DNA from: a bacterium HR19
GTDB lineage: Bacteria; Calescibacteriota; Calescibacteriia; Calescibacteriales; Calescibacteriaceae
NCBI GenBank assembly: GCA_002898315.1
Contig: BEHV01000009.1
Coordinates: 1 to 64,000, forward strand
Length of the DNA: 64,000 nucleotides
Direction: 5' to 3'
Part shown: positions 5,804 to 46,179 of the stretch, in pieces
Position numbering within the stretch: the stretch's first letter is position 1
How the letters are laid out: every line of letters starts with the position of its first letter
Position numbers and translations under genes: made by a program
Notes under the pieces: model-generated
What the model saw: only the letters and a program-made list of their open reading frames with translations
What the model was told of the DNA's origin: nothing
Database searches by the model: none

Positions 5804-8323
5804 ATGAAAATACGGGAAGAGATAATACAACTCGCCGAATCAAAAATATTCCAAGAAGATATATTAAAAATTTCAGAACTCATAACCCAACTTTATGAAG
5901 ATAAAATAACCGAAATTTACAAGCAAGAGATAGGAGATGTAGATGGTATCTGTCTTTCAGCATTTGGTAGCTTCGGGAGAAAGACCATGGCTCCGTGTTC
6001 AGACATAGATTTTATAATCCTTACCTCATCAACAGAAATATCTGATAAATTCAGCAATAGGATATCTTCGTTTATCGCAAAAGTGTGGGATGTGGTCTCA
6101 AAGGCAGAATTCTCGGTGAGAACTCCTGCTGAAACAATGAAAATAGCCCTTGAAGATGTAAAAGTTCTCTCATATCTTTCAGATATAAGGTTCATAGCCG
6201 GTGATTTAAGGGTCTTCAATCAGCTCATATATATTCTGGAACAAGAAAAGGAGCAACTGAAAATTGACTTCTTCTCAAAAATAGCACAAGATAGAAAAAA
6301 GAGGATTTCAAAATTCAAAGTTATGAGCGAACCAGATTTAAAAAAATCCCCTGGCGGATTAGACGATTTCTTCTTCATAAATTCTCTGAGCAAACTGATA
6401 ACAGATGAGGTCTTTGTATATACCGATGAAATAAAAAGCGATTTCAAAAGAGTTCTTGAAACAAGATTTATACTTCACATATTACAGAAGAGAAATTCAA
6501 ATGTGATACATTCAGGAATAATTGAGGAGATTTTAAATTTCAAAAAGAGAAAAACAGGAAAAGTTTTCAATCCGAGAGATTTTATGACAAAGATAATCTC
6601 CTCAATGCAGAGAATAAAAGTTTATGCAGATATAGCACAAAACTTCGTAAAAAAAAAGATATTTCCTCAACATCCAGAACTCATAACCTCACTCGGTAAA
6701 GATTATATATCAGATGGAGAGTTCATTTATGCAGATATAGAAAGCTTCAAGAAGGAACCATGGAGAATGGTTGAAATTTTCAAACTGGCAAAAGAAAATA
6801 ATTTAGAAATAGCGCCCGAAACCGCATATCAGATGCTGAAAATCAAAAATGTTAACCTCACACACGATCAGAAAGCAAGTGAAATATTCCTTGATATTAT
6901 GACAGATTTAGGTGGTATAGCAAAAACTCTTATGAAGATGAAAGAACTCGGTGTTCTGGAAAAAATAATTCCAGAATTCTCAAAAGTATCAAATCTATAT
7001 CAGCTCTTCCCACCTCATATATATCCCGTTGGAACTCATCTGATAAAGTGCGTTGAGGAAACGGAAAAAATCCTCTCTGGAATCAGACCTCAGTATATAG
7101 AGATACTCCCGGATTTTGCAGAAATAGATAAGAAGATAATTTTTCTTTCCGCATTCCTTCACGACATAGGTAAGGGTTCAAGGCAAGACCACAGCGAAGT
7201 GGGGGAGAAATTAACTGAAAAAATAGCTCAACGACTAGGTATTGTCGGCTACGAGCTTGAAAGATTGAAGTTCATCGTAAAAAATCACCTCTCACTCTCT
7301 CACTTCTCCCAAAGGAGAGATATGCACGATACCTCATCTCTTGAGAAATTTGTATCATCCTTCCCAGATAGGATGACTTTGAACACACTTTACATAATAA
7401 CAATAGCAGATGCCATAGCAACTAATCCATCAAACTGGAACGAATGGAAAGCCCACCTCATTCAAGAAGTTTATTCCAGAGCAGATGAGATGATGAGAAA
7501 AGGTCTTGAATACACCGAAGAAGAAAGAATAGATATACTCATGCTTTCTGATGAACTTAAAAACTTCTTCCCAGCAGAAATAGTTGATAATTTCGTATCA
7601 TCTCTATCTCAAAAGTTCCTTTCTTTCTTCAACTATGATAGATTGTTCAGGTACTCTATGGCTTTCTTAAAAGCTTACACACAACAGAAAGAGTTCATAA
7701 CATACACCAAAAGAGATGAAGGAGTAATAGAAATAGTAGTGATAGGTAAAGATTCTCAGACATTTATTGCTGAGTGTGCTGGAACACTCTTTCTTTCGGG
7801 ATTCAATATTCTCTCGCTTTTCAGTGAAAGCGGAGTTATGGAAATGGCAATAAACATTTTCTGGGTACAACCCCCAGATAAGTCAAAAGCAGAAAAGTTC
7901 AAAAAGATGTTTTACAGAAGAGACCTGAAAGAAATAATCTTGAAGGTTCAAGAAAAAAGAAAAAATTTCGGAATAGAAATGGGATATGATTCCAAAACAA
8001 AAAGATATAGGAGAAAAAAAGAAGATATAGCAATAGTTTTTGATAATAACTTTTCTGAAAACTACACCATAGTTGAAGTTTATTGTTCAGATAGACCGGG
8101 TCTGCTTTTTGATATATCTTGTGCTATTTTGTTTTCGGGATTTGAGATATCTGTTGCAAAAATATCAACAAGAGAGAACAAAGTCGCAGATATATTTTAT
8201 ATAAGAGATAGAGCTAAAATGAAAAAGCTATCCGAAGAACAGTGCGCTAAATTAAAAATTGAGATAGAAAAATCTATCACTCAGGGAGTTCAGCTCCCTC
8301 TTCAGCTACCAGCACATCTTTGA
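5804..8323 (+). CDS. glnD: GlnD-like bifunctional uridylyltransferase (nucleotidyltransferase, HD and ACT domains)
   Basis: GSFGRKTMAPCSDIDFIIL, HD domain FLSAFLHDIGKGSRQDHSEVG, C-terminal ACT-like CSDRPGLLFDISCAI. Confidence 0.88.
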   Translation: MKIREEIIQLAESKIFQEDILKISELITQLYEDKITEIYKQEIGDVDGICLSAFGSFGRKTMAPCSDIDFIILTSSTEISDKFSNRISSFIAKVWDVVSKAEFSVRTPAETMKIALEDVKVLSYLSDIRFIAGDLRVFNQLIYILEQEKEQLKIDFFSKIAQDRKKRISKFKVMSEPDLKKSPGGLDDFFFINSLSKLITDEVFVYTDEIKSDFKRVLETRFILHILQKRNSNVIHSGIIEEILNFKKRKTGKVFNPRDFMTKIISSMQRIKVYADIAQNFVKKKIFPQHPELITSLGKDYISDGEFIYADIESFKKEPWRMVEIFKLAKENNLEIAPETAYQMLKIKNVNLTHDQKASEIFLDIMTDLGGIAKTLMKMKELGVLEKIIPEFSKVSNLYQLFPPHIYPVGTHLIKCVEETEKILSGIRPQYIEILPDFAEIDKKIIFLSAFLHDIGKGSRQDHSEVGEKLTEKIAQRLGIVGYELERLKFIVKNHLSLSHFSQRRDMHDTSSLEKFVSSFPDRMTLNTLYIITIADAIATNPSNWNEWKAHLIQEVYSRADEMMRKGLEYTEEERIDILMLSDELKNFFPAEIVDNFVSSLSQKFLSFFNYDRLFRYSMAFLKAYTQQKEFITYTKRDEGVIEIVVIGKDSQTFIAECAGTLFLSGFNILSLFSESGVMEMAINIFWVQPPDKSKAEKFKKMFYRRDLKEIILKVQEKRKNFGIEMGYDSKTKRYRRKKEDIAIVFDNNFSENYTIVEVYCSDRPGLLFDISCAILFSGFEISVAKISTRENKVADIFYIRDRAKMKKLSEEQCAKLKIEIEKSITQGVQLPLQLPAHL

Positions 8324-40699: not shown

Positions 40700-42031
40700 A
40701 TGAAAAAGGTAATTTTACCGTTTTTTTTATCTATTTCTTTCATTTTTTTTGGATACAGAGGATACGCCGAACCCCTTGACTTTTACTGCTCCGGTCCCAT
40801 ATCTCGTATGATGGGATGCGCAGGAATAGCCGGAAAAGGTGGATACGAAAGTGCTTTCTTAAACCCCGCTCTAATATCAGAAAGAAAGTCCCTCGGAATT
40901 GGCTATCTATTTGCTTCACAAAAACCTGAAATCACCCTCAGAGACCAAAAACTTGAAAAAATAGGTAATCCCCTTGAAAATATATCTGACCTGAATATAG
41001 GTCTATCCTTCTCATTAGCAGATATACCATTTTTGAAAAAAGAAAAAATTTTTGAACATATAGGCGTTGGACTCGCAGGAGTTCTCCCAACATCACCGCA
41101 GTTGATAAGAGTCGGGAATGTTATGACAAAAACACCATCTACTTTACTCTATGGGAACAGAAATACGAGATTTTCAATATTTGCTGGACTATCTGGGAAT
41201 ATACCAATAGGAGAAAACTTTAAAATCTTTATTGGTGGTTCAACTTTTCTTCTTGCAGACCTCCCAATACTGCTTTCCGCTAATCTCTCCCCTGATAAAG
41301 ATTTTGTCGTTGTTGATGGTGCCCTTGAAGGAAGACCGGGATTTCAAGGTGGAATAGCTCTCACTTATTCTTCGGAATCTTTCTATGTTAAAGCGGGTGG
41401 GACAGCCAGAAGTTCAATATACATAAACATTCCAGCAGTTGTAGATGCGTATTTGATCGGTGAAAAGGCACTATCTCTATCAGCATCACTATTTGACTCA
41501 TTTATTCCCTCGCTTTTCGGTGCAGGCATAGGAGGAGGATACACAACTGAAAAACTCGGTCTTCACATTGCTCTTGATTTTTTGAGATACAACTTCTCAA
41601 AATTTAAACTTTCTCTGCTGAGCGTTGATAAAGTAGAGCCAACAGAAGTTGCAAATCTTTTAAAACCACTCCTGCCCAAAACAGAGGTTTCACTGCAAGA
41701 CATAAATGTAATAAGGTTAGGTGTAATGGAAGAACTGAACAACCTTATAGGTAAAACAGATGTTATTCTCGGTCAGGGTTTCTCTCTCTTTCCTTCCCCT
41801 CTCAAAAATCAACAGGGAACTGCTCTCGTAGATGCTGATAGAACAATCTTATCTGCTGGAGCGGGACTCCGAGGTCCATCTCCAATACTGTTTCAAGGAG
41901 ACATAGAATTTATAATATCAGGACAACTTCACATGCTGAAAAAAACGGAGTTTGATTTTCCTGGAATCGGAAAAAGTTCCATCTCTGGAAACCTGCCGGT
42001 TATATCTGCAATACTGAATATATACTGGTGA
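40700..42031 (+). CDS. Predicted outer-membrane beta-barrel protein
   Basis: Signal peptide; AFLNPALISERKSLGIGYLFASQKPEI; alternating beta-strand pattern to C-terminus. Confidence 0.55.
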   Translation: MKKVILPFFLSISFIFFGYRGYAEPLDFYCSGPISRMMGCAGIAGKGGYESAFLNPALISERKSLGIGYLFASQKPEITLRDQKLEKIGNPLENISDLNIGLSFSLADIPFLKKEKIFEHIGVGLAGVLPTSPQLIRVGNVMTKTPSTLLYGNRNTRFSIFAGLSGNIPIGENFKIFIGGSTFLLADLPILLSANLSPDKDFVVVDGALEGRPGFQGGIALTYSSESFYVKAGGTARSSIYINIPAVVDAYLIGEKALSLSASLFDSFIPSLFGAGIGGGYTTEKLGLHIALDFLRYNFSKFKLSLLSVDKVEPTEVANLLKPLLPKTEVSLQDINVIRLGVMEELNNLIGKTDVILGQGFSLFPSPLKNQQGTALVDADRTILSAGAGLRGPSPILFQGDIEFIISGQLHMLKKTEFDFPGIGKSSISGNLPVISAILNIYW

Positions 42032-42117: not shown

Positions 42118-42861
42118 TCAGAACAGGTTGAGATGTATGTGCAAGTTTATCTTGAAAATCCAAAAATTTGGATTATCAGCTTCAAAAAGAATACCTCCTT
42201 GTAAAGCGAAGTTTTTTATGGAGGGAAAAACGGAGAAACCAAAAAATGCGCTTTCTGTTCTCAGAAACTCAGTGAGTATCACGAGGTCTGGCTGATCATA
42301 TTCCGCGAGATAAGGTCTTATTCCGAATGCCAGTCCAAATGGTATTTCCAATTTTTGAAAAGAGTGAGGGAGTTCGCCTGAAAAAAACGAAAAAAGATAA
42401 AATCTCCTGCCTTCGCTTGCGAAGGAAATTCCTCCTCTGGATCCTTTAGAAGATACAGCAAAATTAAGCGATAAGCTTTCCTGCAATCCAAAACCATCAA
42501 ATCTGAAAAACCTTATTCTTGTTCCCAAAATGGGATTTATCTCTGAGTTCCCTGCATTTAGGTTGGCTCTAACTGAAATGTTCGGAGTTATTCCGTAGAT
42601 TGTTTCAAGTTCAAATGAATTATTTTTGAGAAATTCAAATCCATTTTCTTTTTTCATTTTTTCGTGTTCCCAGCTGAATTCAAGCATGAGCCCTCCTTTC
42701 CACATTGTCCTCGCTCCTTCAACAAAAAGTGGCTCATGGCAAAGAGCATCTCCTGAAAATAAATAAGAACAAGCAAAAAAGCTCAGGAGTAAAATATAAG
42801 TTCCCCTCAAACACCTTAATGGGAGTTTCATCATTCTATTTGTTTTATTTGCTTTCATCAT
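42118..42861 (-). CDS. Predicted outer-membrane beta-barrel protein, last gene of the mer-type operon
   Basis: Signal peptide, CHEPLFVEGARTMWKGGLMLEFSWEHEK, beta-strand alternation ending in …NLHIHLNLF; start overlaps upstream HMA stop by 4 bp. Confidence 0.6.
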   Translation of the reverse strand: MMKANKTNRMMKLPLRCLRGTYILLLSFFACSYLFSGDALCHEPLFVEGARTMWKGGLMLEFSWEHEKMKKENGFEFLKNNSFELETIYGITPNISVRANLNAGNSEINPILGTRIRFFRFDGFGLQESLSLNFAVSSKGSRGGISFASEGRRFYLFSFFSGELPHSFQKLEIPFGLAFGIRPYLAEYDQPDLVILTEFLRTESAFFGFSVFPSIKNFALQGGILFEADNPNFWIFKINLHIHLNLF

Positions 42862-43187
42862 TTCTCATCTTTTTCGTTTTCTTCTACTTCTATTAGCTTT
42901 CTCAAACTGAAGCCAGAGTCCTCTACTATTTTTTTCAGGTCATTTGAATCAATATCATTTGAAGCTTCAACAATAACTTTTCCTTCGCTCAAGATTATCT
43001 TTACATTTTTTATTCCTTCTTTTCTTTTAAGTTTTGATTCAAGACCAAAAGAACAGAGCGGGCAGGAAAGTCCATCAACTTGAAGGATAATTTTTTTTGC
43101 AAAAACATTCTCGGCTTGAAAAAGCATAAAGAAAAAGCATAAAAAAATAAAGAGAAGGAAAGAAAAATGTGCAACTGGACGCACCAT
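42858..43187 (-). CDS. Periplasmic heavy-metal-associated (HMA/MerP-like) protein
   Basis: Signal peptide then ILQVDGLSCPLCSFGLESKLKRKEGIKNVKI. Confidence 0.8.
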   Translation of the reverse strand: MVRPVAHFSFLLFIFLCFFFMLFQAENVFAKKIILQVDGLSCPLCSFGLESKLKRKEGIKNVKIILSEGKVIVEASNDIDSNDLKKIVEDSGFSLRKLIEVEENEKDEK

Positions 43188-43205
43188 CCATTTTTTCCCT
43201 CCCTT

Positions 43206-44681
43206 CTATACACAACATGAAAGCTTTGAAACATCTTTTATAAACGAAAGAGCACATAGTTTCACAGCTTCGGAAAGTGACGGGAAAACAGGGAGTGTTT
43301 CAAGAACATCGTAAATAGTCATCTTACTTTTAACAATCACCATAGCGTAAGAGATAATCTCCCCTGCATTTGGGGCAAGGATGTGAACGCCAAGGATTTG
43401 CTTTGTATCAGGATGAACAACAAGTTTTACCGCACCTTCTACGCTATCGTTTATTATTGCTCTTGGTACATTGGAAAGTTCCAGCACTCTGCATGAGCAT
43501 CTCCCCAACCGTTTCATAAGCTCCGCTTCCGTAAGTCCTACACCAGCAAGTTCTGGGTCTGTAAAGATTGTATAAGGCACAGAACTGTAATCAATTGATT
43601 TCTTTGACCCTGTTAAAGCGTTCTCAGCAGCAATACTTCCTTCTTTTCCAGCGGTCGTCTCAAGCCGTAGGGGTTGATTGATACAATCTCCCGCAGCATA
43701 AATATTTTTGTTTGATGTCTCAAGGTATTCATTAACTACGATTGCCTTCCTCTCATCAATCTCTACACCTGCTCTTTCAAGCCCAAGCCCATCTGTATTC
43801 GGTACTTTCCCGGCAGCAACAAGAATTTCATCACCGGAGATATTATATTTTTCCCCATCAATCAAATAGGTGAGCACCTTCTTTCCTGATTCCTTCTTTG
43901 CGCTGAGCACCTTCGCATTTGTCTTGATTACTATTCCTTCTTTTTCAAGGATTTTTTGAAGTCGGATAACAATTTCTCTCTCGCCCGGCCCGAAGATTGT
44001 GGGCTGAAATTCAAGAATGGTAACCCTTGTCCCAAAGCGTGAAAATAGCTGACCAAACTCAAGCCCCATCGGTCCCGCACCAACAATCATCAGTTCTCGC
44101 GGACGATTTTTCAAACTCAATGCTTCAATATGTGTTATGAAGCCGGTTTCCTTCAAACCTTCAATCGGTGGAATTCCTGTCTTTGAGCCCACAGCCAGAA
44201 CAAATTTTTCTGCAATATATGTTTCACCATTAACCCTTATCTCCCTTTCCGATAGAAACTCCGCTTTTCCTTCAATAAATTGTACATTCTTCAAATTCTT
44301 GAGAACATTTATATACTTTTCTTCTCTCATTCTTCTCACAAGCTCAATCTCGTCTGTTATAACTTTTGAAAAATCAAAACTCTCAAGCGATATTTTGATA
44401 CCATTGATGCTATTGCTTTTGACAACGTGTAGGATTTGAGCAAGATGGATTAATCTTTTGGATGGGACACATCCTACATTAACGCATGTTCCACCGATTG
44501 GTAAGCCGGAATTAACCATAAGTGCTTTTGCGCCGAGTTCATTTGCCTTAATTACCGCAGCAAAGCCCGCAGCTCCCCCACCTATAACTATCAAATCAAA
44601 CCCTTTTTTCATAGCAAAACCTCCTGATACTAATTGAAAAACTTGCCATCGTTCCACACCTGAAAAATACACAACTTTCAA
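43206..44681 (-). CDS. merA: Mercuric reductase
   Basis: GGTCVNVGCVPSKRLIH redox motif, pyridine nucleotide-disulfide oxidoreductase fold, C-terminal vicinal cysteines LSCCV diagnostic of MerA; no N-terminal HMA domain. Confidence 0.88.
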   Translation of the reverse strand: MKVVYFSGVERWQVFQLVSGGFAMKKGFDLIVIGGGAAGFAAVIKANELGAKALMVNSGLPIGGTCVNVGCVPSKRLIHLAQILHVVKSNSINGIKISLESFDFSKVITDEIELVRRMREEKYINVLKNLKNVQFIEGKAEFLSEREIRVNGETYIAEKFVLAVGSKTGIPPIEGLKETGFITHIEALSLKNRPRELMIVGAGPMGLEFGQLFSRFGTRVTILEFQPTIFGPGEREIVIRLQKILEKEGIVIKTNAKVLSAKKESGKKVLTYLIDGEKYNISGDEILVAAGKVPNTDGLGLERAGVEIDERKAIVVNEYLETSNKNIYAAGDCINQPLRLETTAGKEGSIAAENALTGSKKSIDYSSVPYTIFTDPELAGVGLTEAELMKRLGRCSCRVLELSNVPRAIINDSVEGAVKLVVHPDTKQILGVHILAPNAGEIISYAMVIVKSKMTIYDVLETLPVFPSLSEAVKLCALSFIKDVSKLSCCV

Positions 44682-44686
44682 ACTTT

Positions 44687-45340
44687 TTAATCTACGATTT
44701 TCGCTCTGTATCCAGCATCTTCAATAGCACTTATAAATTGCGAAATAGATTTTTCATCTCCTAAAATTTTTATTATGAGAACCTTATTTTTGAAGTCGGG
44801 AAGAAGTTCATACCCTGCTTCTCCGACTTTTTTCTCAATTGACCTTTTTACTGCCTGAAAGCACATCGCACAATCCATACCTTCAACATAAACTTTATAC
44901 TCCTTATAGCGAGCTCTTATGTTTTGGTTTGACTTGCTTTCACTTACCTCTGCTTTTCCTCCTCTCAAAGAAATTGGAAATATAACATGATTGTATATGA
45001 TAAGTGATAAGACAAGGACTGTCGCAAACCATAAAACGGCATTTGATATTTTTTTGGTTTTCGTGTCAGATGGAACAGCACAGCAATCATCTTCTTTTTT
45101 CTTTTTGTTCCTGAAATTAATTATATGAGCATAAGTCAGAAGCGATAGAGATAAAATACCTAAAATGGTATCAAAGTGAGGGATTTTTCTAAGAGGAGCG
45201 AGGAATCCCAATGAAGCAGATGATACACCTAAAAGAGCAGTAAAAAGCGGAAGACCACAGCATATACCTATACCGAAAACAGCCAGTATAGAAGCGACTA
45301 TTCCCGTTTTATTATTTTTTGTACTAACCATATTGCTCAC
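44687..45340 (-). CDS. MerT-like mercury transporter with fused C-terminal HMA (MerP-like) domain
   Basis: GIGICCGLPLFTALLG TM Cys pair, DDCCAVP loop Cys pair, C-terminal VYVEGMDCAMCFQAVKRSIEK. Confidence 0.82.
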   Translation of the reverse strand: MSNMVSTKNNKTGIVASILAVFGIGICCGLPLFTALLGVSSASLGFLAPLRKIPHFDTILGILSLSLLTYAHIINFRNKKKKEDDCCAVPSDTKTKKISNAVLWFATVLVLSLIIYNHVIFPISLRGGKAEVSESKSNQNIRARYKEYKVYVEGMDCAMCFQAVKRSIEKKVGEAGYELLPDFKNKVLIIKILGDEKSISQFISAIEDAGYRAKIVD

Positions 45341-45403
45341 CTCTTTTTTTTGCTACAACTGCTTTGCTTTTCAATAAGGTTTGCGTTGTTTCACCAAGAG
45401 TTC

Positions 45404-45613
45404 TCAGCTTTTGCTGTTTTTTCCGCAACAACCGCCATGTGCATCTTTCATCATCTCTATCATCTCAATTCCGCAACACTTTGGTGGCGGTTCGCTTGAT
45501 CTTGCTTCTTTTTTCATACCACAGCTCGGGCATATATATTTTCTTGTTTCTTCCTCGGTCTTTCTTTCTTTGGTGCCGACACTTTGTTTTTGTTTTTCCG
45601 GCTCTCTGCTCAT
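45404..45613 (-). CDS. Small cysteine-rich putative metal-binding protein, first gene of the mer-type operon
   Basis: KYICPSCGMKKEARSSEPPPKCCGIEMIEMMKDAHGGCCGKNSKS; strong SD AAAGGAGGTGA upstream. Confidence 0.7.
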   Translation of the reverse strand: MSREPEKQKQSVGTKERKTEEETRKYICPSCGMKKEARSSEPPPKCCGIEMIEMMKDAHGGCCGKNSKS

Positions 45614-45667
45614 TTTTGCTCACCTCCTTTCTTTTTCTTAACTATACATAAACTTAATTATGCCAGA

Positions 45668-45689
45668 ACTTTATACTCGGGTATAATGT
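45668..45689. promoter_or_regulatory. Candidate MerR operator dyad ACTTTATAC-TCGG-GTATAATGT
   Basis: 9-4-9 inverted repeat (8/9 matched) in the divergent merR/mer intergenic region. Confidence 0.6.
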
Positions 45690-45741
45690 TTTACTTTTGG
45701 AAAAATAGAATGCTTTTTTTCAGTACATAATTTATTTTCTG

Positions 45742-46179
45742 ATGCGTATAGCAAAAGGCAACACGAAAGGGGAAAATGAACTCTTTGTAAGCGATATTTC
45801 AAGAATCTGCAAAATAAATAAGCAGACAATTTACTACTATGAGAGGTTGGGTCTGATAAAACCAAAAAGAAGAACTCCATCTGGTTATAGGGTTTTTTCT
45901 CCTGAAACCTGCGAAAGGATAGAATTTATCAAAAAAGCACAGAAACTGAAAATCAGGTTAAGCGAAATAAGGCAAATACTTAAAGTTGTTGATTCCGGGA
46001 AAAAGCCATGCAGACATGTTTTAGATTTGATAGATGTCAAAATTCAAAGAGCTCAAAAAATCCTCAAAGACATTCAAGATTACATAAGCGAGCTGAAAAA
46101 ATTAAAAAGAAAATGGAAAAAAATGGATATTTCTCGTTGCAGACGAAAATACTGCTCAATAATTGAAGAAATAAAATAG
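45742..46179 (+). CDS. merR: MerR-family transcriptional regulator
   Basis: VSDISRICKINKQTIYYYERLGLIKPKRRTPSGYRVFSPE; Cys in KKPCRHV and SRCRRKYCS; divergent from mer genes. Confidence 0.85.
   Translation: MRIAKGNTKGENELFVSDISRICKINKQTIYYYERLGLIKPKRRTPSGYRVFSPETCERIEFIKKAQKLKIRLSEIRQILKVVDSGKKPCRHVLDLIDVKIQRAQKILKDIQDYISELKKLKRKWKKMDISRCRRKYCSIIEEIK

Follow-up and report, generated by a model that had tools for sequence, protein, structure and literature searches.

The last two genes of a mercury-type operon in the bacterium HR19 (phylum Calescibacteriota) encode a secreted HMA protein and a predicted outer-membrane-type beta-barrel, and this HMA-barrel pair looks like a conserved, undescribed cell-surface metal-handling module attached to the mercury operon. 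The operon lies in a window of 64,000 nucleotides, the whole stretch of DNA that was analyzed (NCBI GenBank assembly GCA_002898315.1, contig BEHV01000009.1, positions 1 to 64,000). On the minus strand, positions 45613-42118 hold the genes for a cysteine-rich protein of 69 amino acids (aa), a MerT with a fused HMA domain (MerT-HMA; 217 aa), MerA (468 aa), the HMA protein (109 aa) and the barrel (247 aa). In the standard picture of mercury resistance, Hg(II) enters the periplasm by diffusion, and mer-encoded handling begins at MerP. The reading favored here, with a probability of roughly one half, is that the barrel and the HMA protein move a thiophilic metal, taken to be Hg(II) in this operon, through the outer membrane in the direction of MerT and MerA; as parts of this reading, we infer co-transcription, the metal, the direction of its movement and physical contact. 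If it is true, a dedicated outer-membrane partner would make the first step of mercury capture genetically encoded and testable.

The barrel gene (42118..42861, minus strand) is predicted to encode a protein of 12 strands. An earlier interpretation made from the letters of the window alone, termed the sequence-only reading, had guessed at a beta-barrel, and the guess held up when tested: a hydropathy count finds no internal transmembrane helices, and AlphaFold2 confidently models 12 strands (predicted local distance difference test, or pLDDT, 91.7; predicted template modeling score, or pTM, 0.82) from an alignment of 28 HMA-linked barrels, the window barrel included. The single-sequence AlphaFold2 model is uninformative (pLDDT 31.8). 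The protein has a signal-peptide-like N-terminus, followed by HEPLF, and ends in phenylalanine. Foldseek matches to the model include NanC, KdgM, VhGalP, FapF and PcoB. The best structural agreement is with KdgM and NanC, which are of similar length and 6-10% identical (template modeling [TM] scores of 0.55-0.65), while PcoB (7pge) is matched with an expectation value (E) of 2.9e-4 and TM scores of 0.44/0.46. Taken alone, the window barrel matches no Pfam family (up to E=1), no NCBIfam family and no PDB sequence, and it has no match by tblastn in plasmids or in a scan of viral contigs. The barrel family PF13557 (Phenol_MetA_deg) is matched by 6/28 of the aligned HMA-linked barrels, with the window barrel itself falling below, and the profile of the aligned set weakly matches FapF in the PDB (E 0.0014).

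The relationship of this protein to barrels found beside HMA genes elsewhere is evident at the profile level. With the profile of all HMA-linked barrels, it ranks first among the 66 open reading frames (ORFs) of the window (E=4e-6, next 0.13), and hhalign of the protein against that profile gives a probability of 89.9%. Only the combined HMA-linked set matches; no single group's profile reaches the window barrel convincingly, and a Bacteroidota-only profile fails. In addition to this profile similarity, the window barrel has an adjacent HMA gene on the same strand that is of the barrel-linked subtype, and both features place it in the HMA-linked group; the AlphaFold2 model lends independent support.

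Recurrence of the pair was assessed in 396 Bacteroidota genomes, 247 Acidobacteriota genomes and a third phylum of 58 genomes, using an HMA profile (A1), the window barrel with six relatives (A2) and a wider barrel profile (A3). The barrel of one Bacteroidota genome (G030), used as a query across its phylum, has seven strong carriers. In 6/7 of these, a stand-alone HMA gene with the motif VDGL(S/G)CPFCAY adjoins the barrel; in the seventh (G114), the barrel is broken by stops and lies beside a MerT-HMA fusion near merA. At that locus (L127), downstream of merA, in-frame stops break the barrel gene into fragments at 6777-7118 and 7121-7483. Nearly all of the best A1 matches in Acidobacteriota and the third phylum adjoin a barrel gene, and the reverse search with A2 finds barrels in 7/58 genomes of the third phylum, 7/7 of them at the HMA loci. 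Likewise, A3 in Acidobacteriota yields a same-strand adjacent HMA in 14/14 fetched loci at about 99 bits or more, some of these loci being seeds of the profile. Among 12 non-seed loci (L207-L218, down to about 70 bits), an adjacent HMA gene is present in eight, HMA and barrel share a single frame in two, and two have neither. Under about 51 bits, only 3/10 Acidobacteriota barrel matches have an adjacent HMA, a drop that is expected at a family boundary. The presence of the pair in at least three other phyla means that the barrel is genuinely coupled to the HMA gene, and this coupling is well supported. A search of the open full-text literature found no description of the pair; subscription papers were outside that search, so this absence is not proof.

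These data make it very improbable that the gene at the end of the operon encodes a generic small porin or a structural barrel and follows the HMA gene by chance. Small 12-stranded barrels are common, the similarity of the window protein to other HMA-linked barrels is weak, and the opposite strand carries another barrel-like gene immediately downstream (40700-42031). Chance placement, however, does not readily fit the repeated finding of the pair in three other phyla or the existence of single-frame HMA-barrel genes, and the HMA-linked profile matches only the operon's terminal gene among the window ORFs, not 40700-42031.

The HMA gene of the window (42858..43187, minus strand) encodes a secreted protein (VDGLSCPLCSFGLESKL) that matches PF00403 at 30 bits, above the cut-off, and has CPLC as its CxxC motif. 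It is not a MerP by the curated model (21.3 bits; cut-off 92.55) and scores higher with CopZ models than with MerP. Against NF041115, the model for HMA proteins with UxxU (U, selenocysteine), it reaches 25 bits of the required 95 and has the cysteine form CPLC. In a tree of 85 HMA domains, which is coarse because it rests on 67 columns, the protein lies within a clade formed by seven barrel-linked HMAs of Bacteroidota and Acidobacteriota (bootstrap 95 / Shimodaira-Hasegawa-like approximate likelihood ratio test 87) and is separate from the HMAs found in MerT, in MerA and in mer operons that lack a barrel. The weaker HMA matches in Acidobacteriota (41-45 bits) pair with TlpA-like thioredoxins and form a separate subgroup.

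Several barrel-linked HMA genes of Acidobacteriota are candidates for selenoproteins with an outer-membrane partner, as judged from their reading frames. In-frame TGA codons stand at both CxxC cysteines in five loci (L204, with GLAUPLU, and L208, L209, L210 and L211) and at the first cysteine only (UxxC) in three (L212, L215 and L217). In two further loci (L213 and L216, from genomes G641 and G603), the HMA domain (CGNU), a linker and the barrel become one continuous frame when TGA is read as selenocysteine, which is a possible natural fusion. SelB scores above its cut-off in 9/10 genomes of the selenocysteine type, the two with the CGNU form included, as opposed to 2/10 of the cysteine type (Fisher p 0.0055); the cysteine-type genomes include G000 and G030. 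A very soft metal is suggested by the candidate selenocysteines at the CxxC positions together with the distribution of selB. HMA proteins with UxxU already have a selenoprotein entry (NF041115 in PMC13188914), and the selenoprotein tables of PMC13188914 and PMC9312934 name no barrel partner for them.

The association of the barrel with mer genes is far looser than its association with HMA genes. The sampled merA loci above the cut-off number 42 (29 from Bacteroidota and 13 from Acidobacteriota); two of them (L039 and L042) gave no MerA ORF at first gene-calling and were rechecked on larger pieces (L182 and L185). The sequence-only reading had proposed that the terminal gene is coupled to the operon and conserved with merA: coupling to the HMA gene stands, and coupling to merA does not, with one intact and one broken barrel among these loci. 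Nor was the five-gene order found elsewhere. The closest arrangement is that of G030 (L055), where merR, barrel, HMA, MerT-HMA and MerA lie on one strand and the HMA motif is VDGLSCPFC. In G501, the contig with merA also carries, about 7 kb away from it, a merR, a CC-containing membrane protein, a barrel and a UxxU HMA. By inspection, no barrel is present in the merA neighborhoods of Peregrinibacteria, a Thermococcus plasmid or a Manganitrophus plasmid; a hypothetical protein beside the Manganitrophus merA was considered as a barrel candidate and rejected as a repeat protein. On the Thermococcus peptonophilus plasmid (L023, 5998-7397), merA is annotated as two overlapping coding sequences, a frameshift or sequencing error, and this split gene stands beside HMA and YHS genes. 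The occurrence of the barrel in so few merA loci suggests an add-on module that is not part of mer itself, and its position after merA in the window and before merT in L055 suggests two recruitments.

A number of observations weigh against inward passage of Hg(II) through the barrel. The barrel occurs in only 2/42 sampled merA loci (intact in G030, broken in G114), and since it is rare in mer operons, mercury is not its sole substrate and perhaps not its usual one. Elsewhere, the neighbors of the pair include CsoR-type repressors, small thioredoxins and NHL proteins. The window barrel has no cysteine past the predicted signal peptide and few histidines; in direct comparison with single relatives its sequence similarity is weak, the best E being about 0.01 to 0.03, and the alignment behind its AlphaFold2 model is distant, with members 10-22% identical to it. 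The regulator scores 80.9 bits with TIGR02051, for which the cut-off is 150.85, and nearly as high with the ZntR and CadR models; the spacing of its cysteines also differs from that of Hg-responsive MerR proteins. Finally, the fold does not give the direction of transport, because PcoB has been argued to act both in import (PMC9210255) and in efflux (PMC12509749).

Some of these points also favor a reading, quite unlikely overall, in which the pair handles copper, or thiophilic metals in general, as a module carried along downstream of merA without contributing to mercury resistance. Most copies of the pair lie outside mer operons, several of them beside CsoR-type repressors, the window HMA favors CopZ models over MerP, and the regulator falls short of the Hg-MerR cut-off. 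A passenger is less expected, however, inside an apparent mer transcription unit, which is where the pair stands in both the window and L055; moreover, the gaps in the window are short and the gene preceding the pair is merA.

The mechanism envisaged for inward passage is a MerP-MerT-MerA relay with an added first step at the outer membrane. MerR would induce the whole operon in response to a thiophilic metal, most likely Hg(II). In the outer membrane, the barrel would serve as a path for the metal, or as a site where it docks, whether as the ion or in a small complex with a thiol. At the periplasmic mouth, the CxxC motif of the HMA protein would bind the metal, and the protein would pass it to the MerT-HMA fusion. 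MerT would then move it inwards, and MerA would reduce it to Hg(0). Capture at the periplasmic mouth could also shield other periplasmic thiols from Hg(II).

The same two proteins might instead export or sequester metal, an option that seems rather unlikely: periplasmic Hg(II), Cu(I) or Ag(I) would be bound by the HMA protein and handed to the barrel, to be released or kept at the cell surface, and the inward route through MerT and MerA would operate separately. The pair mostly occurs without merA and must therefore be useful without a cytoplasmic reductase, and PcoB/CopB, the barrel of copper operons, has been proposed to serve efflux (PMC12509749). Export is harder to reconcile with the setting of the pair, which has no energized pump or resistance-nodulation-division (RND) component beside it and which, in the window, forms the tail of an uptake-and-reduce operon. 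Furthermore, the pair is followed in five loci of the third phylum, and also in Acidobacteriota, by weakly MerT-like inner-membrane proteins, whose known relatives act inwards. Secreted proteins of the NHL-repeat or NHL-like kind also come after the pair repeatedly (L057, L058, L059, L105 and L110). A broader proposal, held only tentatively, is that a secreted HMA protein with cysteine or selenocysteine ligands and a 12-stranded barrel, sometimes in one polypeptide, constitute an undescribed and widespread envelope system that transports mercury, or soft metals like it, through the outer membrane and has been recruited by mer operons at least twice. Pairs outside mer operons, with candidate selenocysteine ligands in one phylum, provide a natural series in which the identity of the transported metal and the direction of its movement can be examined.

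Of the remaining genes, those for MerA and MerT-HMA assign the operon to the mer type. MerA (43206..44612, minus strand) passes the curated NCBIfam equivalog cut-off of TIGR02053 (528.4 bits; cut-off 454.45), carries GGTCVNVGC and a C-terminal CC, and has no N-terminal HMA domain. Its start is most likely at 44612, with a TTG ORF extending to 44681. The closest relatives found are from Peregrinibacteria (L010, L011 and L012; 58-60% identity), where no other mer-like gene was matched beside merA. The MerT-HMA protein (44687..45340, minus strand) passes PF02411 (46.3 bits; cut-off 32.9) and scores 57.5 bits with NCBIfam MerTP_fusion, under the cut-off of 180; CC is present in the first transmembrane helix and again in a loop, and GMDCAMC lies in the HMA domain. 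The cysteine-rich protein (45404..45613, minus strand; GGAGGTGAG before the ATG) has the motifs CPSCGM, KCC and GGCC and is zinc-ribbon-like; it matches no Pfam or NCBIfam family above cut-off and has no tblastn match in plasmids. The divergent MerR-family regulator (45742..46179, plus strand) matches MerR_1 (56.6 bits, E 2.7e-15), scores under every metal-specific NCBIfam cut-off and has cysteines at positions 90, 133 and 138. Between merR and the operon, an inverted repeat (AACTTTATAC-4-GTATAATGTT; 45667..45690) with 10-bp arms, 90% complementarity and a 4-nt spacer is a candidate MerR-type operator.

All six ORFs lie where the sequence-only reading had placed them, in the order it gave and with merR divergent, and it was also correct that there are two separate HMA modules, neither of which is the usual N-terminal HMA of MerA. 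The intergenic gaps are 63 bp (cysteine-rich gene to merT), 74 bp (merT to merA) and 18 bp (merA to the HMA gene), and the HMA stop and barrel ATG overlap by 4 bp (42858-42861), as had been noted. Shine-Dalgarno-like sequences precede the cysteine-rich gene, merA and the HMA gene. The five genes have a GC content at third codon positions of 0.26-0.40, on either side of the window mean of 0.33, so there is no compositional sign of recent transfer. MerA and the barrel were not found in the four other genomes sampled from the phylum (five including the source). Scans with consensus promoters and terminators gave no more matches than shuffled sequence, and an Rfam search gave none. The convergent neighbor at 40700-42031 (plus strand) encodes a secreted, possibly barrel-like protein of 443 aa with no family match; as a candidate for a second HMA-linked barrel it was rejected, as it does not match the HMA-linked barrel profile.

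Like the classical mer operon (merR-merT-merP-merA; PMC3466566), the operon of HR19 has a divergent MerR-family regulator, a MerT, an HMA protein and a MerA. Unlike the classical operon, its MerT carries an HMA domain of its own, the separate HMA protein is not a MerP by the curated model, and a predicted outer-membrane barrel is added. Such a barrel is missing from the gene list in PMC3466566, which agrees with the earlier statement that classical mer operons have no dedicated outer-membrane protein. PcoB/CopB (PMC9210255, PMC12509749) likewise provide a dedicated outer-membrane barrel inside a heavy-metal operon, and PcoB is a similar 12-stranded barrel (Foldseek TM score about 0.45). However, the window barrel has neither a CopB Pfam match nor the disordered His/Met-rich N-terminus, and its partner gene encodes an HMA protein, whereas that of PcoB/CopB encodes a multicopper oxidase. 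Among the other structural matches, FapF, which exports amyloid subunits, lacks an HMA partner, and KdgM and NanC are sugar-acid porins with no link to metals, unlike the setting of the window barrel. The NF041115 protein has an HMA-type domain with UxxU in place of CxxC, as do barrel-linked HMAs of Acidobacteriota.

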